From assembly GCF_014647155.1 (NCBI RefSeq), contig NZ_BMOQ01000010.1:1-49642 (forward strand): a DNA stretch of 49,642 bases, in the 5' to 3' direction. The notes beneath the pieces are model-generated. The model worked only from the letters and a program-made list of their open reading frames with translations, was not told where the DNA came from and did no database searches. Made by a program: the position numbers and the translations under genes. This stretch comes from Halarchaeum nitratireducens. GTDB taxonomy: Archaea; Halobacteriota; Halobacteria; Halobacteriales; Halobacteriaceae. Shown here piece by piece: positions 11,747 to 36,828 of this stretch. How positions within the stretch are numbered: position 1 is the stretch's first letter; every line of letters starts with the position of its first letter.

Positions 11747-12775
11747 ATGATACGCGATGCTCGCGTTCTCCGCGCCGGGTTCGTCCCTCGGGAAGTCGAG
11801 CATCGCGACGCCGAAGTCAACCATCTCTCCAGCGTTCTCGAACCCATTACGAATGGCGAACCTGCGGATACAGCTATCGTCACAGGGGCGAGCGGCACTG
11901 GGAAAACCTGTATTTCACAGTTCGTTACCGAGCGCCTCCGCGAAGAGGTTCTCGACGTTGAGGCCACCTACGTCAACTGCTGGCGTAACTACACCCGATT
12001 CCGAACGCTCTACCAGATCCTCGACGATTTCGGCGAAACCATCGATATCCACCGCCAGTCGACACCCCACGACGAACTCATCGACCGACTCCAACAGTAC
12101 GACGGGCCACGGACAGTCATCATCCTTGACGAGGTCGACCAGCTCGAAGATCCGGGTATTATCTACGACCTGCATAGCCTGCCCCAGTTCGCGGTGATTT
12201 GTATCGCCAACAAAGAAGAGGACCTCTTCAGCCGCGTCGACGACCGCCTCGTGAGTCGGCTTCGGTCCAGCGAACACGTCCGCATGGACAAGTACCACGA
12301 TGAGCAACTCCACGATATCCTCGATGCTCGTGTGAAAGGAGGGCTTGAACCGGACGTCGTCACGAATAACCAACTCGACCGCATTGCCGACGCCGCTGCT
12401 GGCGATGCCCGCCTCGCCATTGGCATTCTCCGGACCGCCGCGAGCAAAGCCGATCGTGAGAGCAGCGAGCGAATCACTGACGATATCCTCCTTGACTCGG
12501 CGGAAGATGCCCGCGCCCAGATCAAGCAGAAGAGCCTCGATTCACTCACGCCCCACCAGCGGATCGTCTACGACGTCGTCCGCGAACACAGCCCGCTCGG
12601 CCCGAGCGAGATTCACGAGCGCTACACCGACGAGGTCGACGACCCTCGGACGAAACGCACGGTCCGCACGTATCTCTCGAAAATGGCCCAGTACAACCTC
12701 CTCGAAGCAGAGGGGACAAGCCGGGATCGGGAATACTCGCTCGTCGATTCGGCGGCTGCCTCGCCGATTCAGTAA
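11747..12775 (+). CDS. orc: Orc1/Cdc6-family replication initiator (short form)
   Basis: 342 aa AAA+ protein. Walker A is VTGASGTGKT (residues 45-54) and Walker B ILDEVD (126-131), followed by sensor regions and a C-terminal winged helix (LTPHQRIVYDVVREHSPLGPSEIHERY ... RTYLSKMAQYNLLEAEG). Proteins of this family bind origin boxes and load the MCM helicase. It lacks the long N-terminal extension of the second Orc at 21631. A TATA-like CTTATA sits about 38 bases before the ATG. The par locus nearby suggests this was the initiator of one of two fused replicons. Confidence 0.88.
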   Translation: MIRDARVLRAGFVPREVEHRDAEVNHLSSVLEPITNGEPADTAIVTGASGTGKTCISQFVTERLREEVLDVEATYVNCWRNYTRFRTLYQILDDFGETIDIHRQSTPHDELIDRLQQYDGPRTVIILDEVDQLEDPGIIYDLHSLPQFAVICIANKEEDLFSRVDDRLVSRLRSSEHVRMDKYHDEQLHDILDARVKGGLEPDVVTNNQLDRIADAAAGDARLAIGILRTAASKADRESSERITDDILLDSAEDARAQIKQKSLDSLTPHQRIVYDVVREHSPLGPSEIHERYTDEVDDPRTKRTVRTYLSKMAQYNLLEAEGTSRDREYSLVDSAAASPIQ

Positions 12776-12850
12776 CTCCGGAAAGTTCGGCTGGGTGCTC
12801 GAACTGCATCCCGAGCGGTATCACGTTCGGGGAATTCGGGATCCGACGAC

Positions 12851-12862
12851 AGAGTATAAATA
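12851..12862 (+). promoter_or_regulatory. TATA promoter of the DUF262/DUF1524 gene
   Basis: AGAGTATAAATA: TATAAA at 12855-12860 lies 25-30 bases before the ATG at 12885, the spacing of a haloarchaeal leaderless promoter. This decides the start of the downstream gene against a much longer open frame. Confidence 0.7.
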
Positions 12863-12884
12863 CTCTTCTTGCGTTCTGGTGACT

Positions 12885-14798
12885 ATGTCCAGACAGGTCT
12901 CCGATTATTTGTCTGAAATAAATGACCACATCTTCCTCCCTGGGCTCCAGCGAGAATTTGTCTGGAACCCGAGACAAATTGAGGAACTGTTCGATTCACT
13001 GATCCGAGACTATCCGATTGGCGCAGTAACTGAATGGAGAGTGCGAGCGGCCAATATCAACGACTACAACTCGTATAACTTCCTGCAGATGTACGTTGCC
13101 GATGACTACCGACCACCGGATTCAGTTCTAGCGGAATACGACCTCTACAATCAGGAGATTGAGGACGAAGAGCCGGAAATACTAATTATAGACGGCCAGC
13201 AGCGGTTGAATTCGCTCTATATCGGTGTCGAGGGTGAAATCGCAGTGTACAATGGGGGACGGGGACAGCCCAGCGATCAGCTCCAGTACTGGGAAGGCCG
13301 ACGGCTGTGTGTTGACCTGTTCGGCCACCCGGAGTACGACCGCGACGACACGGCAGGCGACTACGGGTTCGAGTTCAGATCGACGGGGAAGTTTGGAGGA
13401 ACCGACGACACTGGCTATTCCATGACTGGCGACACACGACACCTATGGATGCCGGTAGGGGAGTTATGGAACGGTGGCGGTGAAGCGGCCACCGGGAACT
13501 CAACGGTACTTGAGGGGAGAGCGCTTAGTGAGGTCGTCGATAGATACGTCGACACTGCTGAACTGAGGGCGGATAACGAAACCCGATATCAGCTGCGTAG
13601 TATTTCGATGGCCGTTGCGAGAGACATCACGAGCAACGTTCTTCAGGACGATCTCGAAACCGACAGTACGAGCAAGGACCGGTCCGAAATTCCCGAGATA
13701 TTCACTAGGCTAAACATGGAGGGCTCCGACCCGAAGCCGTACCAGCTCCTCCTCTCAAAGCTAATGAGTTACTGGCCGTACGCGGAAGAAGAGAGCAAGC
13801 GGATCAACCCCCGGGAAGTGATTCAGGGTTGGATTGACGAATTTAAACAGAGGTTCCCTCAGTATGAGCAGGAGATCGACCGGAACCTGTTCCTCCGGTA
13901 TACAGCGTACCTCGTCGGAACCGATCTCCTCCGTAGCAACCTCAGCAGTATCGACGAGGATAGAATGGACGAGATGCGCGAGCGTTGGTTGTTCGACGAG
14001 CCCGTCGTCGCCGGTCGGCGATTCGAGTGGTTTCGAACGTCGCTCGAGAAGGCATTCCAGACAGTAATTGAGAGCGGGATTCGGAGCTCGGTCATGAACA
14101 CGATGCCAATCTTCGCATTACTTGGAGTGTTTTACTACCAGAATCCGGATGCCGAGGTCTCTGACGCGAACCGCGAGAGTGTTTTCCAGTTCATCGCAAG
14201 AGCGCTCCTGCTGAACAAGTACTACCAAGTTCTGACCTACGGCAAGTGTCGCAACTGGATGCGGTATCTCCGCAAATGGGAACCAGCACCTAACGAGCCC
14301 ATTGTTTTCCCAGGAGAGGAACTATTTGAATCGGAGAACATCAGCCCGTCCGCCGAGGACATCCGCCGGGTCGTAGCCAACGCCCGTTACGAGAGTAGCC
14401 CTGGGAAGCCTGTATTCACCGACACAGATGTCACGGCAGTACTCGGGCTCATCGAGGAATCGTATACGCAGTCGATGTCTGATAGTATCGGCGACTACTC
14501 GGTTGACCACATCTACCCGAAAAGCAAGGAAGAAACAGTATCCGAAGCCGTAGGAGAAACCGTTGATCTTGACCGAATTGGGAACCTGCAGCTGTTGCCT
14601 CATGAGATGAACGAAGAAATCAAACGCGATCAGTGGCCACATGACTGGCTGGACGACCTCGGCGATGCCGAGGCCGAGCGGATTTGTCGGATAAACCAGT
14701 ACCCCGATACCGAGCCTACGCCGGAGAACGCACAAGCGTTTATTCAGGCCCGCGAAGAGCAGATTACGGACTACCTGCTCGATAGATATGTCAAATGA
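12885..14798 (+). CDS. DUF262/DUF1524 (GmrSD-like) restriction protein
   Basis: 637 aa. The N-terminal DUF262 domain shows LPGLQREFVWNPRQIEELFDSL and the DGQQR nucleotide-binding motif (IIDGQQRLNSLYI, about residue 100). The C-terminal DUF1524 domain is an HNH-type nuclease: DHIYPKS, then GNLQLLPHEMNEEIK about 50 residues later. Single-chain proteins of this type include GmrSD and SspE, which cut modified DNA or act with phosphorothioation marks. No modification genes lie beside it, so its trigger is unknown. The frame is open back to 12345 inside the orc gene, but TATA at 12855 and domain homology support the start at 12885. Confidence 0.85.
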   Translation: MSRQVSDYLSEINDHIFLPGLQREFVWNPRQIEELFDSLIRDYPIGAVTEWRVRAANINDYNSYNFLQMYVADDYRPPDSVLAEYDLYNQEIEDEEPEILIIDGQQRLNSLYIGVEGEIAVYNGGRGQPSDQLQYWEGRRLCVDLFGHPEYDRDDTAGDYGFEFRSTGKFGGTDDTGYSMTGDTRHLWMPVGELWNGGGEAATGNSTVLEGRALSEVVDRYVDTAELRADNETRYQLRSISMAVARDITSNVLQDDLETDSTSKDRSEIPEIFTRLNMEGSDPKPYQLLLSKLMSYWPYAEEESKRINPREVIQGWIDEFKQRFPQYEQEIDRNLFLRYTAYLVGTDLLRSNLSSIDEDRMDEMRERWLFDEPVVAGRRFEWFRTSLEKAFQTVIESGIRSSVMNTMPIFALLGVFYYQNPDAEVSDANRESVFQFIARALLLNKYYQVLTYGKCRNWMRYLRKWEPAPNEPIVFPGEELFESENISPSAEDIRRVVANARYESSPGKPVFTDTDVTAVLGLIEESYTQSMSDSIGDYSVDHIYPKSKEETVSEAVGETVDLDRIGNLQLLPHEMNEEIKRDQWPHDWLDDLGDAEAERICRINQYPDTEPTPENAQAFIQAREEQITDYLLDRYVK

Positions 14799-14992: not shown

Positions 14993-15103
14993 GCTCAAAG
15001 ATGGTCATCATCTCCGGAACCGTTCTCGGAAATGGCCTCTTCAAATACGAAGAGACGGCAACAGCGCTGCCACTCGCCCGGTTCTGGTCTGTTTCCTGAA
15101 ACG

Positions 15104-15132
15104 CGGAAGCGACACGCCGCGGCTTATCGGGA
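15104..15132 (+). repeat. 29-bp direct repeat, copy 1
   Basis: Begins CGGAAGCGACACGC and ends GGCTTATCGGGA. It matches 18573-18601 with one mismatch. It lies 21 bases before the ATG at 15153. Confidence 0.7.
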
Positions 15133-15152: not shown

Positions 15153-16103
15153 ATGGCCGAGAGATCAACGTCGTCATCGAACCGGCTGGCAGTGAATCAG
15201 CCGACCCGGGGCGCAGAGCGCAATCAGACCCTCGCTGACCAAGCCGATCCAGCGGCCGAGGATCTCCTGCTCCCCTCGCTTGACGACGGCATCACGCTCC
15301 TGGACGTCGACGGCAGTCGAGGCGTCCCTGTTCTCCAGTCACTGGTTCTCGATCATCTACTCCTCCACGAGGGGCCCGCCTTCTGGATTGACGCAAACGG
15401 CCACGCGACGACGACCACCCTTGCCCAGATAGCCCCGAGTCAGCGGTTGCTCAACCGAATCCACGTCGCTCGCGGCTTCACCGCTTACCAGCACTACGGA
15501 GCGGTCTGCGATCTCACGGCGGCGGTGAATCAATCCATCCAGCAATCGACCACTGACATCGAGACTCCAGGCCGACAGCGACCGGGTCGCGACGACGATT
15601 CGTCCCCGTATACTCCCTCGCTCATCGTCGCGCCGGCCGTCGATGCGCAGTACCGTGCCGCCGACACGCTCAGAGAGGAGTACACGGAGACGTTGCAGGC
15701 GCGAACACTCGCACAACTGGCGACCTACGCCGAGGGCTACGACGTGCCGGTCCTCGTCACCCGGAGCACGGCCGACGAGTTCACGGCGCCGGTCGCGACG
15801 GCCGCCGATCACCACCTCAAATGCGAGCAAACCCGCATGGGGCCCCGGTTCGTCAGCGACGAGTTCGAGACACTCGTCTACCCCGTCGACGACGGTGCGT
15901 ACTACCAGACCACATTCGCCTACTGGCGACAGCTGCTCGATGCTCGTGCCACGCAGGTCGGCTTCGAATCCGCGACACCCCCGTCATCGACGACGAGTAC
16001 TGCAGACGTCGGGAGAGGAGTGATGGCTGACGGTGAGACGACGTCGCTCACCGCGAATCCCCTACTGGACGCGTGGACTGCCGCCGGGGCTGGAGGGCGA
16101 TAA
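15153..16103 (+). CDS. RecA/RadA-fold protein lacking a Walker A motif
   Basis: 316 aa from the ATG at 15153 (a TTG two codons earlier is possible). The pattern LLDVDGSRGVPVLQSLVLDHLL ... FWIDANGHATTTTLAQIAPSQRLLNRIHVARGFTAYQHYGAV follows the RadA/RecA core, including the ARGFTAYQH stretch that in RadA reads RAYNSDHQ. The P-loop is replaced by GSRGVPVL, with no GK[ST], so ATP hydrolysis is unlikely. It begins a module that ends with polB, so a DNA-binding accessory role in plasmid replication or repair is inferred. Confidence 0.6.
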   Translation: MAERSTSSSNRLAVNQPTRGAERNQTLADQADPAAEDLLLPSLDDGITLLDVDGSRGVPVLQSLVLDHLLLHEGPAFWIDANGHATTTTLAQIAPSQRLLNRIHVARGFTAYQHYGAVCDLTAAVNQSIQQSTTDIETPGRQRPGRDDDSSPYTPSLIVAPAVDAQYRAADTLREEYTETLQARTLAQLATYAEGYDVPVLVTRSTADEFTAPVATAADHHLKCEQTRMGPRFVSDEFETLVYPVDDGAYYQTTFAYWRQLLDARATQVGFESATPPSSTTSTADVGRGVMADGETTSLTANPLLDAWTAAGAGGR

Positions 16104-16105
16104 CG

Positions 16106-16414
16106 ATGGGGCGAACGAACCCGACATATCGGGATGCACTACGGGCCATCGAGGAGCGCTGGGCGGACTTCCGGCGGGCGCTCCGCCGGCGCGACCAACC
16201 CCGCTTCGACCAGTTGTTCGCGTACGCTCGCGAACACGCCGACGCCAGCGGGCTGTTGAACCACCAGAACCCGCTGCTTCCGGCCCTCTTCAGCATCGAT
16301 CTCGAACAGGAGGCCAGGCTCGATGCGCACGAAGAGCGCCTCGCGGAGCTCGAACAACGACTCGCAGCAGTCGACGACAGCGAGTCCGGACAGCCTGACA
16401 CCAAAGAGGGATAG
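16106..16414 (+). CDS. Small coiled-coil protein of the polB module
   Basis: 102 aa. It is helical and charged throughout, with likely coiled coils at about residues 8-45 (ALRAIEERWADFRRALRRRDQPRFDQLFAYAREHAD) and 68-92 (LEQEARLDAHEERLAELEQRLA). ATG at 16106 lies two bases after the stop of the RecA-like gene, so it is coupled to it. No function is known to me; the steady pairing with replication genes suggests a scaffold or regulator. Confidence 0.7.
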   Translation: MGRTNPTYRDALRAIEERWADFRRALRRRDQPRFDQLFAYAREHADASGLLNHQNPLLPALFSIDLEQEARLDAHEERLAELEQRLAAVDDSESGQPDTKEG

Positions 16415-16419
16415 CTACG

Positions 16420-16575
16420 GTGGCAGACTTCGATACCGTAGCCTTCGACATCGAGGTGACGGGGTTTGCAACCGACGACCAACTCACCGTCGTGGAGTTC
16501 GATGCAGAGGCGGGCACGCATATCTTTCTCAACACCGGTGGACGAGAGTGTGGGAGGAGCCGGTTGAAGGGATGA
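16420..16575 (+). pseudogene. Truncated RNase H/exonuclease-like gene of the polB module
   Basis: GTG at 16420 begins VADFDTVAFDIEVTGFATDDQ, a strand with the DIExTGF signature of DEDD 3'-5' exonuclease-like folds, here DIEVTGF. The frame ends after 51 residues at TGA 16573-16575 (GGRECGRSRLKG), far shorter than a complete exonuclease domain. The next bases belong to the Nmad-like cassette on the other strand. I infer that the insertion of that cassette cut this gene; no 3' remnant was recognised. Confidence 0.6.
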
Positions 16576-16576
16576 T

Positions 16577-17344
16577 TTAGGTCCGTTCGATTTTTTCTAT
16601 GAACGAATCTCCATCCATATCCAGAATCAGCGGGAACTTTCGGCCGATGCCTTTCTGGCCGCTCTCCACGTTGAACTCGTTTGCAAAGCTCTGGCTTACC
16701 TGATACCATGGAGCCCGGTCCAGCCGTTCGCTTATTTTAATCGGTGAATCAATCTTCGCGGTGGGTTTTCGCCCCTCAATAATTACGAGGTCGTCATGCT
16801 TCGGAGTTCCGGCAGCAGCAAGCCGCTTTGCGTGTGCGTTCTCAGGGAACTGTTCGATTGCATCGTGGTACTCGTCCCCCTCAAGCTGAGACAGGTCGTG
16901 GACCGCCTCAACCGTCATGTATCCGTAGAGGAATCGGTTCAGGTTCGAATCATCGGGACCGTCCTTCATTCCGGTATAGAAACCGAGTACATCCTCGCCT
17001 GTAGAATCCAGGTGCTTCACTAACGTCGTCCCTTTACCACCCTGACCGCGGCGATCACCGAACGTCATTGCCTCAAAGTTGGGATCGTGATGCACGGGAT
17101 GTGATTTGATTTTCTCAGCGTCCCGAATCCAGTCGCTATCCTCTCCTCGGGGACTGATACCATCCACAAACTCAGATGCATACCCACCCCGGTGTTGCAA
17201 CTCCCAGTTTCCGTGCGTGGATTCCTCATTAGTGGGGTATGACTCGGGGATTGGGATGTAGTCGAACTTTCCGCCCTCTGTCAACTCTAACGCTGGACAG
17301 AGATGCTCAGTATCGGCTCCAACGCCGACGAGAACCACCGTCAT
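16577..17344 (-). CDS. Nmad3-like protein (nucleotide-modification-associated domain)
   Basis: 255 aa. It opens VVLVGVGADTEHLCPALE ... KFDYIPIPE, which I recognise as the start of the Nmad3 family (predicted to act with modified nucleotides). Further conserved parts are HHDPNFEAMTFGD, LGFYTGM, FLYGYMTVEAV and NAHAKR, typical of that fold. The family is thought to be an alpha/beta enzyme or base-sensing domain found near DNA-modification genes and in phages. The ATG at 17344 shares a base with the stop of the upstream Nmad2-like gene, so both are made from one transcript. Confidence 0.55.
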   Translation of the reverse strand: MTVVLVGVGADTEHLCPALELTEGGKFDYIPIPESYPTNEESTHGNWELQHRGGYASEFVDGISPRGEDSDWIRDAEKIKSHPVHHDPNFEAMTFGDRRGQGGKGTTLVKHLDSTGEDVLGFYTGMKDGPDDSNLNRFLYGYMTVEAVHDLSQLEGDEYHDAIEQFPENAHAKRLAAAGTPKHDDLVIIEGRKPTAKIDSPIKISERLDRAPWYQVSQSFANEFNVESGQKGIGRKFPLILDMDGDSFIEKIERT

Positions 17345-18222
17345 CAGAGGACGCTCCTGAGTTCAGACAAGATCGTTCCGTCCTGTGATTCACCGGAGTC
17401 GCGGTAGGATCGCTTTCGTTGTCCCCCTCCCCAAGCATCCGGCCCATTACCGACGGTCCAGTAGAACTGGGGCTCCGACCAACTCATCCAATAGTCAGAC
17501 GTGGATGCAAATTTCAGAATGGACCTATCATTGTCCTCGTGATAAACGTGGTCGTACTCTGGATTAACTGTCGTGCTACAACCACAGGAGGAGGTTCCCG
17601 AGCTGGAGACGTGGTCGTGCTCTGGATACGGGGAATCAACGCCAACCACCTCCCCATCGTTAATTACCGCGTGACAATCGCCTTTCTTCCTCGCCCAAGC
17701 CGTGTCCTCGGACGATTCCTGAGTCGCTACGCGGTCTTTCCACGCCGCTTCGTCCTGTTCCAGCAGGAATCGGCCGTAGTCATCCATCCCTCTAAACGCG
17801 TGGGTGACCAGAGCGACGCTGGTCACCCATCGTCTCCGGTCAGCCGCCCAGTCCGGGGTATCCGAATTCATCTTCCCTGCACAGGTGAATAGGAAGAAAG
17901 GCTGTGTAGGCCGCAACACACCGGGCTCAACCTCCTCGAAGTAGTCGAAGAAGTGTTCCTGGCGCATCTTGTGCTTGCAGCAAGCAAGTGACCAGAGGCC
18001 GCCCCAGTAGCTTGGAGAGCTACCACCCTGAACTAGGCCAGAATCGTTGCGGTAGTCAATTGAATCCGCAGGGTAAATTCTACCGTTCACCGGAGAGGTA
18101 TCAAAGTCGTCTCGTTCCTTTGCGAACTTTTCGACAAGTTGCTCTAACCGGGTCCTCAAATCCTCTATACTAGAAGACTGAGTCGCGTTACCTCGTTCAG
18201 GAACGGCTCGCTGCGGCGCCAT
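17344..18222 (-). CDS. Nmad2-like protein
   Basis: 292 aa. The core YRNDSGLVQGG..SYWGGLWSLACCKHKMRQ resembles the Nmad2 pattern (DTGFAPNPF.G..TLA.CKP.IRR). It continues with LRPTQPFFLFTCAGKM, LVTHAFRGMDDYGRFL and a C-terminal SEPQFYWTVGN. CSSCGCSTT-type cysteines occur near residue 215. It is translationally coupled to the Nmad3-like gene. The pair looks AT-richer than the surrounding polB module and is oriented against it, which fits horizontal insertion. The exact function is unknown; sensing or processing of modified nucleotides is inferred. Confidence 0.5.
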   Translation of the reverse strand: MAPQRAVPERGNATQSSSIEDLRTRLEQLVEKFAKERDDFDTSPVNGRIYPADSIDYRNDSGLVQGGSSPSYWGGLWSLACCKHKMRQEHFFDYFEEVEPGVLRPTQPFFLFTCAGKMNSDTPDWAADRRRWVTSVALVTHAFRGMDDYGRFLLEQDEAAWKDRVATQESSEDTAWARKKGDCHAVINDGEVVGVDSPYPEHDHVSSSGTSSCGCSTTVNPEYDHVYHEDNDRSILKFASTSDYWMSWSEPQFYWTVGNGPDAWGGGQRKRSYRDSGESQDGTILSELRSVL

Positions 18223-18269
18223 ACAGTCGCATCAGAGGATGCGGAAATAAGTCTAATGTTGACAACCCA

Positions 18270-18398
18270 CGGCTGCTTTTCGTCGACACGAATGCGCTCG
18301 TGGCACGATTTGACACGTAGAGAGCGGAAATCCACCACTTTAGGGAAGAGGTCAATTTGGGTCTGATTGCAGTGTCACGCCTCGTATCCAGGTCATAA
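18270..18398 (+). pseudogene. Possible PIN-domain relic
   Basis: RLLFVDTNALVARFDT resembles the first strand of a PIN (VapC) ribonuclease. A TAG at 18318-18320 interrupts it, and the frame continues AEIHHFREEVNLGLIAVSRLVSRS before TAA. There is no start codon or catalytic remainder. It is a weak relic call. Confidence 0.25.
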
Positions 18399-18431
18399 CC
18401 AACGCCGGATCAAGACAGAGAGAAGCCTATA

Positions 18432-18473
18432 TTAACCAACAGCCCGCAGCCATTCGTCCCCAACGTTGGTTAA
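18432..18473. repeat. TTAACCAAC/GTTGGTTAA inverted repeat, copy B
   Basis: TTAACCAAC at 18432-18440 and GTTGGTTAA at 18465-18473, 24-bp spacer. It lies about 170 bases before the polB start. Confidence 0.75.
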
Positions 18474-18572
18474 TCCGGAGATCGTCGCCGTAATAATTCG
18501 GAAAGTTGCTCTAAAGGGTGGAAGTCAGGGATTAGACGGCCACAGTCAATAATTACGCTAATCTCGGAAATC

Positions 18573-18601
18573 CGGAAGCGACACGCTGCGGCTTATCGGG
18601 A
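18573..18601 (+). repeat. 29-bp direct repeat, copy 2
   Basis: Matches 15104-15132 with one mismatch (CGGAAGCGACACGCTG here, CGGAAGCGACACGCCG there). It lies 45 bases before the polB ATG. The distance from the inverted repeat is 99 bp here and 111 bp in the other copy. Confidence 0.7.
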
Positions 18602-18645: not shown

Positions 18646-20793
18646 ATGTCGTTCACTATTGACTTCCTTGATGATGGTCGCGTCCTCGAATGGGAGACAA
18701 GCGGCGACGGTGCCGTGGCGACCGAACGTGACGACTACACGCCCCATTTCTACGTTGCCTCGCGCACACCTGATACTGACATCGACCTCACGGCGCTTCG
18801 CACGCTGTACGAACGTCACCCCGACGTCATTTCGACCGAGGTCGTGTCTCGGCGGCCCGGCTTCCGTCGCGACGACGAGCGCGTCCTCGCCGTCGACGTC
18901 CACCACATCAACCAGATCACGTCGCTTGCTCGTCAGGCTCGCCAGCTGTCAACGTATCCGGTCGGAGATCTCGCCTGCTTCAACGTCGACTTCTCGCGTG
19001 AGTTTCGGTACTGTCTGGAGAATGGCCTTAATCCAACGCCGGCGACGGAGCTGTCACCACTTTGGCTCAGCGTCCCGGTGACCGAAACGAGTGGGGACAC
19101 GTACACGGAACTGACCGTCGCCGGCGAGACAGTTACAGGGCCACCGGAAGACATTCTATCAGCTGTTCAAGCGGCGCTCGAGACACACGACCCGGATATC
19201 CTGATATGCTCGACGAGCGAGATCATCCCGACGCTATACGAAATGGCCACGGCTGCCGGCATCGACGAGTTCACGCTGAGTCGGTGGCCGGGCGTCGACT
19301 ACCAACAGCTCGCGAGTCGGTCGACGTACGCGAGCTATGGCCGCGTCGGCCACTCGCCATCCCGGTACAACGTGCCCGGCCGGGCGATCATCGACGAGTC
19401 GAACACATTCTTCTACGGCGAGACGAACCTCGACGGTGTCCTCGATCTTGTCTCGCGGTCGAAAAAGCCAGTTCAGGAACTCGCCTGGGCGTCGATTGGG
19501 AACGTTCTCACCGCCATCCAGATCTGTGAAGCCCACAACCGCGGCGTCCTGGTTCCGTGGAACTCCTGGCGGCACGAGTTCTACAAGCCGATGGGGACGC
19601 TCCACGACGCCGACCGCGGCGGATTCATTTTCGCGCCTGATGTCGGCCTCCACGAGGACGTCCACGAACTCGACTTCTCCAGTCTCTACCCGAACATCAT
19701 CTGCACGCGGAACGTCTCGCCCGATGTCATCCGGTGTGACTGCCACAGCGACCGCGACGATGTGCCCGGCCTCGGCTACGCGATCTGTGACGACCGCGGC
19801 TACCTCGTCGACGTCCTCCAGCCAATCATCGATGCGCGCAACGAGATCAAGACCGCAATCCGTCGCGAAGAACAGCGGGAGAACCCCGACCAAGACTGTC
19901 TCGACGAACTCGAGGGGCGGTCGGCCGCGCTAAAGTGGATTCTCGTCGCGTGCTTTGGGTATCAGGGATTCAGTAACGCGAAATTCGGCCGAATCGAGTG
20001 CCACGAAGCAATTAACGCGTTCGCTCGGGAGATCCTGCTCACCGCGAAACAGCGGTTGGAAGCGGGCGGATGGCGCGTCGTTCACGGGATCGTCGACTCG
20101 ATCTGGGTGACGCCCGACCCGGACGTCAGCGACGACGAACGAGGATCACTGGAGACGTTGGCCGCCGAGATTACGGACACCGTCGATATCCGTCTCGAAT
20201 ATGAAGCCGAGTACGAGTGGGTAGCGTTCGTGCCACAGCGCGAGAGCGACGCCGGCGCGCTGACGAAATATTTCGGGAAGGTTGCGGGCAAGGACGAGTT
20301 CAAGATACGCGGCATCGAAGCCCGGCAACGATCGACGCCCGGATTCATCGAAGACGTCCAGCGCGACTGTCTCGAGATTCTCGGTCAAACGCAATCTCCG
20401 GATGTGGTAATTAATCGCTTGGAACGGGCGATTTCGGAGCTTCACGCTGGCGATGTCGATTCCGACCGACTCGTCGAACGGAACCGTGTTTCCAAGCCTG
20501 TCGAGGCGTACACGCAGTACACCCAGAACGTGGCGGCACTCGAGCGTGCTCGGGACCAGAACCTCGCTGTCCATCCCGGTCAAGATGTCGAGTACGTGGT
20601 CGTCGACGACGAGAAGGCATCACGAGAACGTGTCGCCCTTGCTCACGAAGAGACGGACCAGTATGATCCATCGTACTATGAGACGCAGCTGGTCCGAGCT
20701 GTCGAGAGTATTATCTCACCCTTGGGATGGGATCGGTCGGATATCCGACGAAGGTTAGCAAAGACACGAACGACTAAGATCACCTCGTTCTGA
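18646..20793 (+). CDS. polB: Plasmid-type family B DNA polymerase
   Basis: 715 aa. Motif A is DFSSLYPNI with catalytic Asp343. Motif B is KWILVACFGYQGFSNAKFGRIECHEAINAF. Motif C reads HGIVDSIWV: the metal-binding Asp484 is kept, but the first Asp of the usual YGDTDS is Ile. The N-terminal exonuclease region looks degenerate, since the usual DxE and Nx(2-3)(F/Y)D boxes are not evident (FNVDFS; ICSTSEIIPTLYEMA). It is shorter than the chromosomal replicative PolB. It may replicate or repair the plasmid together with the RecA-like protein. ATG at 18646. Confidence 0.85.
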   Translation: MSFTIDFLDDGRVLEWETSGDGAVATERDDYTPHFYVASRTPDTDIDLTALRTLYERHPDVISTEVVSRRPGFRRDDERVLAVDVHHINQITSLARQARQLSTYPVGDLACFNVDFSREFRYCLENGLNPTPATELSPLWLSVPVTETSGDTYTELTVAGETVTGPPEDILSAVQAALETHDPDILICSTSEIIPTLYEMATAAGIDEFTLSRWPGVDYQQLASRSTYASYGRVGHSPSRYNVPGRAIIDESNTFFYGETNLDGVLDLVSRSKKPVQELAWASIGNVLTAIQICEAHNRGVLVPWNSWRHEFYKPMGTLHDADRGGFIFAPDVGLHEDVHELDFSSLYPNIICTRNVSPDVIRCDCHSDRDDVPGLGYAICDDRGYLVDVLQPIIDARNEIKTAIRREEQRENPDQDCLDELEGRSAALKWILVACFGYQGFSNAKFGRIECHEAINAFAREILLTAKQRLEAGGWRVVHGIVDSIWVTPDPDVSDDERGSLETLAAEITDTVDIRLEYEAEYEWVAFVPQRESDAGALTKYFGKVAGKDEFKIRGIEARQRSTPGFIEDVQRDCLEILGQTQSPDVVINRLERAISELHAGDVDSDRLVERNRVSKPVEAYTQYTQNVAALERARDQNLAVHPGQDVEYVVVDDEKASRERVALAHEETDQYDPSYYETQLVRAVESIISPLGWDRSDIRRRLAKTRTTKITSF

Positions 20794-25498: not shown

Positions 25499-27205
25499 CT
25501 ACCTGAACCAAGTCGACTCATTTCGGAACTTCTCAATTAGGTCGGGGACAACGTCTTCCCCGAGATTTTCGTCCAGAAGGGTCTGGAGGCCGCCTCCGGA
25601 CTCATATCGCTCCGTCATTTGTTCGAACTGCCCCTCATCATAGACTGCTCTCGGGGCATCAGGCAGGCTTCCCATCATGTCCCCGTTCTCTTTCACGTAT
25701 AGCAAGTCCGACGCAAATTCGAACGTGCTAAAGGCGTCCTTGTACCGTCGTTCATCCGGGATCACATCCTGAAGTGGCTCACGAAGATTCTCGGCCAGCC
25801 TCTTCTTCAAGAGAGAGCTGTTGAGGCGAATGCCATGACCCAGATGCGCGCAAACTGTTGTCGGGTGGAGCTCCAAAGAAGCAGGGCGACCAATCCGTGA
25901 AAACTGCACTTCGGTGTTGACGAGCCGTTCGACTAGGCCCCAGTTCTGGGCTTCGACAGCAGCGATTCCTGTCCCGTAAAACACCCGAGTCGCAGGATAT
26001 TTTTTCAGGTGGTCGTATGCGTCGTTGTATCTCGAAGGTCTCGGAGGCGAACACAGCCTACTGACCGATCGCAGAACATCCCGACTGACCGGGTTTTCGA
26101 CCTCATTCTCCCAGTAGGCAGAAATCGACGTCGCGATGACTAACTTCTCGACCTGTTGTTCGTACGTCTCCACCCGCTGCTCGACGTTCTCATCGTTCAC
26201 GTCCTCGTTCAGCGGTAGCGTGGAGTAGTCGAACACCTCGCCATAGACACGCTCTGTTTCCTCTTTCATCAATTCGGAGAGGTCGATTCTCCGATCGTTC
26301 CGAGGCAGATACTGCTTCGTACGTTCTCGGATGACCTCTCTGGTCAGCGGAGCGCCATCTTCTGCTTTCTCGAGCGCCCTCACGTTTTCTTTAAGGTCGG
26401 AGAAGAACTGGCTCGCTCCCTCTATCTCTAACCTGAACCCCTTGCGATGTTCGATGATCTCCTCTGCGAGGTTGGATACTTCACTCCGATGGGTCCAGTA
26501 GGTGGAATAGCGCCTGTCCTTGCTCGAGAGAATCGATTCTCGGAGTGCCTGGTCGGTATCACCGGACCAACCACAGATGATGAGGCCGTAGTCGTTTAGG
26601 ACCTCGTCGATGAGTTCCTGCATCGGTTCATCGTAGGAAGACAGCTCCTCTGTCGTGTTCCTGAGATTTGTCTCCTTGTAATCGCCGTGAATCTTCAGCA
26701 CGACCGGACCGACGTGGGCGAGGGGCTCAGCTCCATCAGCGGCCTCCATCGTCGAGATCACAGTCGGCTCTACACCGATATCACGGAGGGCGCTCTCCAA
26801 GAGGTTGTCAAAGTTCGTGGTCAGCACGACCCTGATGTACCCCTTTTTCATCAGCCATGCGATACTCTTGTGAGCATCCGTAGGGGTCTTCACTTCATTC
26901 TCCCGTTCTTCGTCCGTCGGTTCGAAGTATCGTTCCAGTAGAACGCGGCGCTCCGGTTTCGTATCGGCTAGTGCCTCTATGAGCTCATCGTACCGCGCTG
27001 GGTGTCCATACTCATCTTCGTACCACTCGAACGGGTCTCCTGGTTCGACTCCTTCTATTTCAGCCACTTTCTCGATCAGGTCCTCAACCACTCCCCACCC
27101 AGTCGGAATCTCAGCAGCCTTCGAGACGCCTGAACCCAACAACAAGGCGTAGACACCTCTGTTGTTCCGCACCGAGAACGTCAACGCCATGTCCTTGTCT
27201 ACCAT
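25499..27205 (-). CDS. SIR2-domain putative defence effector
   Basis: 568 aa. Residues about 18-245 form a SIR2 domain: LLGSGVSKAA (GSGVS 24-28), TTNFDNLLE (129), KIHGDY (171) and CGWSGDTD (211). The long C-terminal half (about 290-568) has no family I recognise and may be the sensor. SIR2 proteins of this design deplete NAD+ on phage infection in several bacterial systems. No partner gene is adjacent; both neighbours are at least 140 bases away. The sequence looks AT-richer than the genes around it, consistent with transfer. ATG at 27205; an internal ATG six codons on is possible. Confidence 0.8.
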   Translation of the reverse strand: MVDKDMALTFSVRNNRGVYALLLGSGVSKAAEIPTGWGVVEDLIEKVAEIEGVEPGDPFEWYEDEYGHPARYDELIEALADTKPERRVLLERYFEPTDEERENEVKTPTDAHKSIAWLMKKGYIRVVLTTNFDNLLESALRDIGVEPTVISTMEAADGAEPLAHVGPVVLKIHGDYKETNLRNTTEELSSYDEPMQELIDEVLNDYGLIICGWSGDTDQALRESILSSKDRRYSTYWTHRSEVSNLAEEIIEHRKGFRLEIEGASQFFSDLKENVRALEKAEDGAPLTREVIRERTKQYLPRNDRRIDLSELMKEETERVYGEVFDYSTLPLNEDVNDENVEQRVETYEQQVEKLVIATSISAYWENEVENPVSRDVLRSVSRLCSPPRPSRYNDAYDHLKKYPATRVFYGTGIAAVEAQNWGLVERLVNTEVQFSRIGRPASLELHPTTVCAHLGHGIRLNSSLLKKRLAENLREPLQDVIPDERRYKDAFSTFEFASDLLYVKENGDMMGSLPDAPRAVYDEGQFEQMTERYESGGGLQTLLDENLGEDVVPDLIEKFRNESTWFR

Positions 27206-35463: not shown

Positions 35464-36828
35464 ATGGCTGTACTGGACGATCTCTCAGGGTTCGAGTTCG
35501 AGGACGTGATGGAGGACGTGTTCCGCAACCTCGGCTACGAGAACGTCCGCCAGGCAGAGCGGACGGCCGACGAGGGCCGCGACGTCATCATGGAGGAGGT
35601 CGTCGACGGTACCCGCCGCGCGATCATCGTCGAGTGTAAGCACACGGGGACGGTCGGGCGACCGGTCGTCCAGAAGCTCCACTCGGCGATCGCGACGTTC
35701 GACTTCGACGGTCCGAAACGCGGGATGGTCGTCACGACCGGCCGGTTCACGAACCCTGCTCAAGAGTACGCCCAGCGGCTCCAGCAAAATGACGATCCCC
35801 ATCCAATCGAGTTGCTTGATGGCGAGGACCTCCGAGAGATCGCCGACGAGATCGGTCTCGACCTCTACAACGGGCGCATCGAGATTCTATGCAACGATAC
35901 CCTACGCCCGTACGACCCGGCCGCCGACGTCGACGCGCCCGTCGCGGAGGCGTTCCGCGACATCGATAACATTGAGGCCGCTGACCTCCCAGAACCACAT
36001 TCGGCGGTGACGTTCCGCCCGGTGGTCGCTGTCACCGCGGACACGAACGCGGTCTTCGAGACGTCGGTGGGCGTCATCCACCGGATCAACGACCGGACTC
36101 GATTCGTCGCCCACGCCGAACGCGGGCAGCCGCAGGTCGTCGACGAAGACGTCGCGACGCTGGTCACCGAGAATCTCCACGCGACGGTCGACCTCGATGC
36201 CGAGCAGTTCGGAGAGGTGTTCGACGACGTTGAGGAGCGGCGGTTCGGGCAGACGCAAACGGAGTACAAGGAGTGGGCCGTCGAGCGCCTCCAGCAGCAT
36301 CACACGACGACGGTCACCTACACCGGCGACAACAACGTCACGTACAACAAGACCTGTGAGCCGAACCGCTCGGACATCTCTGTCCAGTCGATCGAACCAG
36401 TGTACCTCCCGGAAGTTCGGCACACTACCGACGTCCAGGAGTACACCTACCCCTACGAGTACTACGCGGCAGGCCCGTCGAGAGTGACCGCCGAGGACGG
36501 CATCCATCAGTGCGTCCACTGTGACACGAGTGGCGTCACCGAGACGTACACCTACTGTCCGAACTGCGGGGCCATCGCCTGCTCCAGCCACATCAAAACG
36601 GAGCGGCTGGAAGGCGAGCCGGTCTGTACGGGCTGCGCGGTGACGGAACGGTTCGCGCTGAAGACGAAGTACTTCTACGACGAGGAGAATCTCGAAGCGT
36701 TCCGCGAGGAGTACGCCGCGATGCCGATCCACGAGAAGGTGATGGAAAACAAGTGGCTGGCCGGGGGAAGCGTTGTCGCGACGCTGCTGGTCGTCGTCGG
36801 ACTACTCGTCATCGGCGGCATCATCTGA
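35464..36828 (+). CDS. Mrr-like membrane-anchored restriction endonuclease
   Basis: 454 aa. Residues 1-115 form an Mrr-type PD-(D/E)xK nuclease: FEFEDVMEDVFRNLGYENV, catalytic Asp40 in DEGRDVI, and Glu57-x-Lys59 in IIVECKH, followed by QKLHSAIATFDFDGPKRGMVVTTGRFT. A long middle domain (about 130-340) is unassigned. A zinc ribbon (CVHC..CPNCGAIACSSH..CTGC, about 350-395) and one C-terminal transmembrane helix (LAGGSVVATLLVVVGLLVIGG) end the protein. It may cut modified or foreign DNA at the membrane. It is transcribed against the cluster. Confidence 0.8.
   Translation: MAVLDDLSGFEFEDVMEDVFRNLGYENVRQAERTADEGRDVIMEEVVDGTRRAIIVECKHTGTVGRPVVQKLHSAIATFDFDGPKRGMVVTTGRFTNPAQEYAQRLQQNDDPHPIELLDGEDLREIADEIGLDLYNGRIEILCNDTLRPYDPAADVDAPVAEAFRDIDNIEAADLPEPHSAVTFRPVVAVTADTNAVFETSVGVIHRINDRTRFVAHAERGQPQVVDEDVATLVTENLHATVDLDAEQFGEVFDDVEERRFGQTQTEYKEWAVERLQQHHTTTVTYTGDNNVTYNKTCEPNRSDISVQSIEPVYLPEVRHTTDVQEYTYPYEYYAAGPSRVTAEDGIHQCVHCDTSGVTETYTYCPNCGAIACSSHIKTERLEGEPVCTGCAVTERFALKTKYFYDEENLEAFREEYAAMPIHEKVMENKWLAGGSVVATLLVVVGLLVIGGII

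Follow-up and report, generated by a model that had tools for sequence, protein, structure and literature searches.

The Nmad protein families owe their names to gene context only, and no paper describing Nmad family function was found in the literature. On bacterial plasmids, Nmad2 lies directly 3' of a TIR gene in 8 of 11 annotated regions, with the TIR of ThsB type in the three that were tested, and genes for MazG_C, UDG, thymidylate synthase, HMUDK, radical SAM or patatin proteins are met near bacterial Nmad2. The TIR-Nmad2 operons (L116, L117, L118, L119, L121, L122, L123 and L125) can be regarded as candidate nucleotide-based immune systems. One published figure, on E. coli systems validated against phages, has NMAD, TS and 5hmdUk among its domains and leaves the Nmad family unspecified (PMC13092281). 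Another relevant arrangement, composed of DUF499 ATPase, MTase and helicase genes, is of a BREX-related, RM-like type and has also been named Hma (PMC12839542). A Type-2-like system of this kind in Haloprofundus marisrubri (L043/L053), with the HmaABC-like order DUF499 ATPase, N6 MTase, the Nmad pair, PLD/SNF2 helicase, carries the closest known relative of the cassette described below (84% and 86% protein identity). The same locus has a DUF7680 (PF24728) gene (L043:5399-6037) where Type-2 BREX-related systems reportedly carry DUF3780.

The window analysed here is a whole contig of Halarchaeum nitratireducens (C10, 49,642 bases, in a genome of 27 contigs). In contrast to the Haloprofundus system, its cassette stands alone, and DUF499 ATPase, N6 MTase and helicase are not among the scanned window genes. 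As in the bacterial ThsB-TIR operons (L116-L125), which have defence-type effectors nearby, an Nmad2-type gene is coupled to one partner; in the window, however, that partner is Nmad3, and TIR, MazG and HMUDK are absent among the contig genes scanned. The window thus presents a stand-alone Nmad2-like/Nmad3 pair as cargo of a plasmid replication module.

In the left-centre of the contig, Orc1/Cdc6, GmrSD and RecA-like genes, a short gene for a coiled-coil protein, polB and another Orc1/Cdc6 gene all run rightward (Table 1). The RecA-like, coiled-coil and polB genes of the predicted rightward module lie where the original prediction placed them, with two leftward genes splitting the module. The name "RecA-like" is a weak one (Pfam Rad51, E = 0.087). 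A homologue of the coiled-coil gene is present in 145 of 242 haloarchaeal genomes. In Halobacterium salinarum pHS1 a DUF262 gene occupies the position equivalent to that of GmrSD on the contig. A conserved 35-bp element (GAAATCCGGAAGCGACACGCTGCGGCTTATCGGGA) precedes the RecA-like gene in more than 20 related haloarchaeal plasmid loci and stands before polB solely in loci whose polB does not adjoin the coiled-coil gene, namely the window and three further ones (L041/L060, L050 and L052). The two copies in the window differ by 3 mismatches. Given this second copy ahead of a separated polB, the polymerase gene probably keeps a promoter of its own at the 18567 copy. The GC content of positions 18223-18561 is 0.496.

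Table 1. Features of the window discussed in the text (positions of the 49,642-base contig).
Feature	Position	Strand	Remarks
GmrSD (DUF262; PF03235/PF07510) gene	12771-14798	+	Upstream of RecA-like gene; best PADLOC match HEC-05
35-bp conserved element	15098..15132	+	Upstream of RecA-like gene; probable module promoter
RecA/RadB-like gene (tentative name)	15156..16103	+	70-82% identity to homologues in related plasmids
Coiled-coil gene	16106..16414	+	Weak DUF7310/SlyX similarity (Pfam)
Truncated RNase H-like / DEDD exonuclease gene	16420..16575	+	GTG start, 51 codons and TGA
Cassette extent common to Haloprofundus marisrubri	16573..18262	-	blastn ends against L043/L053
Nmad3 (PF18754), second cassette gene, 255 aa	16577..17344	-	Pfam E 1.4e-17, 64.6 bits
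Nmad2-like gene, first cassette gene, 292 aa	17344..18222	-	Motif, Nmad3 pairing
AT-richer stretch between cassette and polB leader	18263..18561		No homology detected
35-bp element, second copy	18567..18601	+	Upstream of polB
Family B DNA polymerase, polB	18646..20793	+	NCBIfam NF004418, 1427.8 bits
SIR2-like gene	25499-27205	-	Matches PDC-S65, a candidate defence family of PADLOC (E 3.5e-184)

Comparison with uninterrupted plasmid modules, by which the predicted insertion could be checked, gave a regular picture. In 27 of the 37 related loci with both genes, among them pHS1, polB directly follows the coiled-coil gene and starts 308-323 nt after the coiled-coil start. Wherever the RNase H-like gene is complete and the start of polB is present too, polB is 2.4-4.8 kb off and cargo, often leftward, is lodged between them: MarR-type regulators, hypothetical genes, TnpB. 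In haloarchaeal plasmids the space that separates these two genes is a cargo slot, and the Nmad cassette is one of the elements it has taken up; since this is a regular cargo site, insertion there is not special to the Nmad cassette.

The first ~42 codons of the short third gene are homologous to the RNase H-like gene, and 9 unrelated codons and a TGA follow. Of seven homologues read elsewhere in haloarchaea, annotated as "ribonuclease H-like", six are 214-220 aa long and the seventh is itself cut at 79 codons, with a TnpB gene adjoining. The predicted stop after 51 codons is therefore a real truncation and not the normal length of the family. Nucleotide homology to the RNase H-like gene runs up to 16546 and that to the Haloprofundus cassette begins at 16573 (blastn), breakpoints which, with the truncated gene, bear out an insertion into the replication module. 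One detail had to be corrected: the third gene was said to stop where the leftward genes begin, whereas it abuts the cassette at its 3' end, a single base away from the stop codon of Nmad3. Full-length relatives carry both the DxE and the C-terminal HxxxD motifs of DEDD 3'-5' exonucleases; as the remnant keeps the FDIE segment but has lost the rest, including the C-terminal HNxxDxxR region (HxxxD), it is presumably inactive. In the explanation favoured here, the cassette would sit in the cargo slot ahead of polB, having taken the place of the 3' three-quarters of the RNase H-like gene.

The GC3 of the cassette (0.59-0.62) is lower than that of the RecA-like gene, the coiled-coil gene and polB (0.73-0.78), and its two genes overlap by one base in a stop/start TGATG, being translationally coupled. 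Neither a target-site duplication nor terminal inverted repeats were conspicuous at the cassette, and the short repeats seen there look like chance. An assembly error at the junction is conceivable, against which it can be said that cassette and flanks lie on one contig and occur a single time.

The Nmad3 assignment of the second cassette gene, proposed earlier by resemblance, was upheld in a profile search: at 64.6 bits against a curated cut-off of 27 the protein is a member of PF18754, residues 3-221 of 255 being aligned with profile positions 2-210 of 247. It also matches PHROG 34025 (E 5.5e-33), and PF18754 is matched by all six cassette Nmad3 proteins found in this study. The family is nevertheless widespread as a haloarchaeal chromosomal gene, which weakens any inference from Nmad3 alone; its presence in 309 of 391 haloarchaeal genomes, mostly as a single copy, suggests a housekeeping use. 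Nmad3 by itself is no defence marker, and the mobile lineage is a separate branch. The tree groups the cassette Nmad3 of the window with those of Haloprofundus, Halorubrum cibi and the first G033 copy in a clade (100/99) that lies apart from the core Nmad3 of haloarchaea and has hosts from three families; the more distant cassette proteins (L045, L047) likewise fall outside the core clade. An impression by eye that Nmad3 resembles a PUA/EVE-like reader is not put forward as a claim.

This distribution bears on the view that the two proteins are modification enzymes with a host role, in RNA or nucleotide-pool chemistry, which merely ride on plasmids, the plasmid copy supplementing a core Nmad3 function. 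The breadth of PF18754 speaks for it, as does a solo Nmad3 adjoining cbf5 in Natronorubrum; the genome of the window (G000) has one PF18754 match only and no other Nmad3. The cassette lineage, however, is distinct from the core lineage, patchy and mobile, and unlike solo core Nmad3 it is coupled to an Nmad2-like gene, a partner absent from the annotated solo Nmad3 loci. A host role is therefore considered improbable for the cassette.

The first cassette gene was predicted to encode Nmad2, and of this identification the gene context and a motif of about 24 residues stand, while the match to the family profile does not. The protein has no match in Pfam, NCBIfam or PADLOC; with Nmad2 (PF18753) there is none at E<=1, nor is there a PF18753 match genome-wide, and one homologue of the protein reaches that profile at E 0.2. 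When an alignment of the six cassette proteins was compared by hhalign with a profile built from 13 collected archaeal and bacterial Nmad2 proteins, a probability of 74% and a score of 41 were obtained, the best of 60 column shuffles reaching 20.6. The match is limited to one stretch (SPSYWGGLWSLACCKHKMR in the window against APNPFGGYCTLACCKPQIR), with the common motif P-x3-G-x-[WC]-[ST]-L-A-x-C-K-x2-[MI]-R, and once the motif is removed the similarity does not exceed that of shuffles. Because similarity is confined to the motif, the protein is best called Nmad2-like and is not an established Nmad2. Its family has in common with Nmad2 this motif, the Nmad3 partner and the type of neighbour (HMUDK, ThsB TIR); it differs in that the window protein has 292 aa against ~205 and an extra Cys/His-rich C-terminal half. 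The invariant residues C82, H184, H204, C213-G-C215 and H228 suggest a putative metal site. Two other weak Nmad2-like matches (L007, L008) were discarded, one being a peptidase-like protein and the other a meaningless frame.

In a profile search, six full-length Nmad2-like copies were found in 5 of 391 haloarchaeal genomes, two of them in G033. All six have Nmad3 beside them: the genes are coupled in the window and paired in the 5 other loci, with the same order and strand in five of the six and divergent in one. Nmad3 also stands directly after two archaeal reference Nmad2 genes (L094, L095). In the haloarchaeon G024, a single open frame, interrupted on its upstream side close to a contig end, holds the C-terminal part of Nmad3 together with Nmad2, and the window cassette has the Nmad3 partner in common with these pairs and with the one-frame protein. 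The latter lies at L143:96-1352 and an Nmad3 N-terminal part at L142:117-482, at the end of another contig; the two pieces resemble one fused gene that was split at a repeat or an insertion. The gene adjoining the one-frame protein was once taken by eye for a uracil-DNA glycosylase, a likeness which neither comparison nor a PDB search supported. Because the pairing holds in 6/6 haloarchaeal loci and another haloarchaeon has both proteins in one frame, Nmad2-like and Nmad3 may well form one complex or pathway.

Two coupled plasmid genes that run opposite to the host operon could also be read as a toxin-antitoxin or plasmid-addiction pair, stabilising the plasmid from within its replication module, and AbiE-type genes are indeed present elsewhere on the contig. 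Such a function is highly improbable, since both proteins exceed the typical size of type II parts and match no toxin-antitoxin family, and since the pairs are also chromosomal and, in one case, stand within a restriction-like operon and in line with it. Searches for further relatives returned little: neither cassette protein has a relative in IMG/VR or in the PDB, Nmad3 and Nmad2 are absent from the phage records searched, and AlphaFold2 gave no usable model of either cassette protein (pLDDT 34 and 32 from 4-row alignments).

The surroundings of the related pairs point towards immunity, although the defence-gene neighbourhoods of Nmad loci are descriptive associations given without a background rate from random genes. 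Apart from the Haloprofundus operon, the pair of Haloarchaeobius sp. FL176 (L047) lies beside an HMUDK_hel 5-hmdU kinase (E 2.8e-69), a ThsB-type TIR (E 2.9e-21) and a PD-(D/E)XK gene; in the window no TIR was seen among the scanned genes. The second G033 copy (L045) has GmrSD and GIY-YIG genes nearby, and in Halorubrum cibi (L046) an Mrr-type gene 3.4 kb from the pair resembles the window gene at 35464-36828, while the first G033 copy (L044) has no clear defence genes beyond an HNH gene. GmrSD, AbiE-type, SIR2 and Mrr genes are likewise carried by the window contig. The 5-hmdU kinase profile PF18723 found no match in G000, and none in the control genomes either. DraG-type ADP-ribosylglycohydrolase genes were observed near two Nmad loci (L043:16694-18532, by NCBIfam, and L143:1392-2291, by resemblance only).

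The cassette itself contains no effector or modification gene; as had been predicted, no modification enzyme was recognised by Pfam either in it or among the scanned contig genes. The link of the proposed module to defence is indirect, through the gene neighbourhoods of its relatives, and neither window protein is matched by the PADLOC phage-defence profiles. In its strictest form the pair would be a direct sensor that binds a hypermodified base in incoming DNA, e.g. a 5-hmdU derivative or 7-deazaguanine, and itself blocks that DNA or triggers its degradation. A target for such a sensor exists in principle because dPreQ1 accounts for ~30% of G in the DNA of halovirus HVTV-1 (PMC6884629), and genes for 5-hmdU kinase, MazG_C, thymidylate synthase and UDG adjoin Nmad2 systems. 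These neighbour enzymes, however, may just as well be engaged in making, removing or using modified nucleotides of the host, and neither a nuclease motif nor an effector domain was recognised in either protein, which leaves direct sensing unlikely.

The explanation preferred here, at about even confidence, is a mobile, coupled Nmad2-like/Nmad3 accessory cassette in a plasmid cargo slot, with an immunity-linked part in the recognition or processing of a modified nucleotide. The plasmid copy is most likely an accessory defence gene pair, a unit acting on modified nucleotides. The complex of both proteins would recognise or process the modified nucleotide and, a weaker step, might in immunity supply the recognition by which a nuclease or NADase effector is licensed. 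Possible sources of the effector on this contig are the genes for GmrSD, Mrr and SIR2; alternatively, the pair may act alone.

A broader and more doubtful proposal, entertained only tentatively, is that the pair constitutes a mobile module, so far unrecognised, for the recognition of modified nucleotides, plugging into different immune effectors and also operating alone from plasmids. If this were true, the effectors would include the DUF499 BREX-related operon, TIR/5-hmdU-kinase systems and GmrSD. What the locus offers is a minimal, freely moving pair, known from five other loci, one of them amid a restriction-like operon, together with a one-frame Nmad3-Nmad2 protein; the function of Nmad2 and Nmad3, and their cooperation, would therefore be accessible to experiment with no more than two genes, in an archaeon that is tractable.
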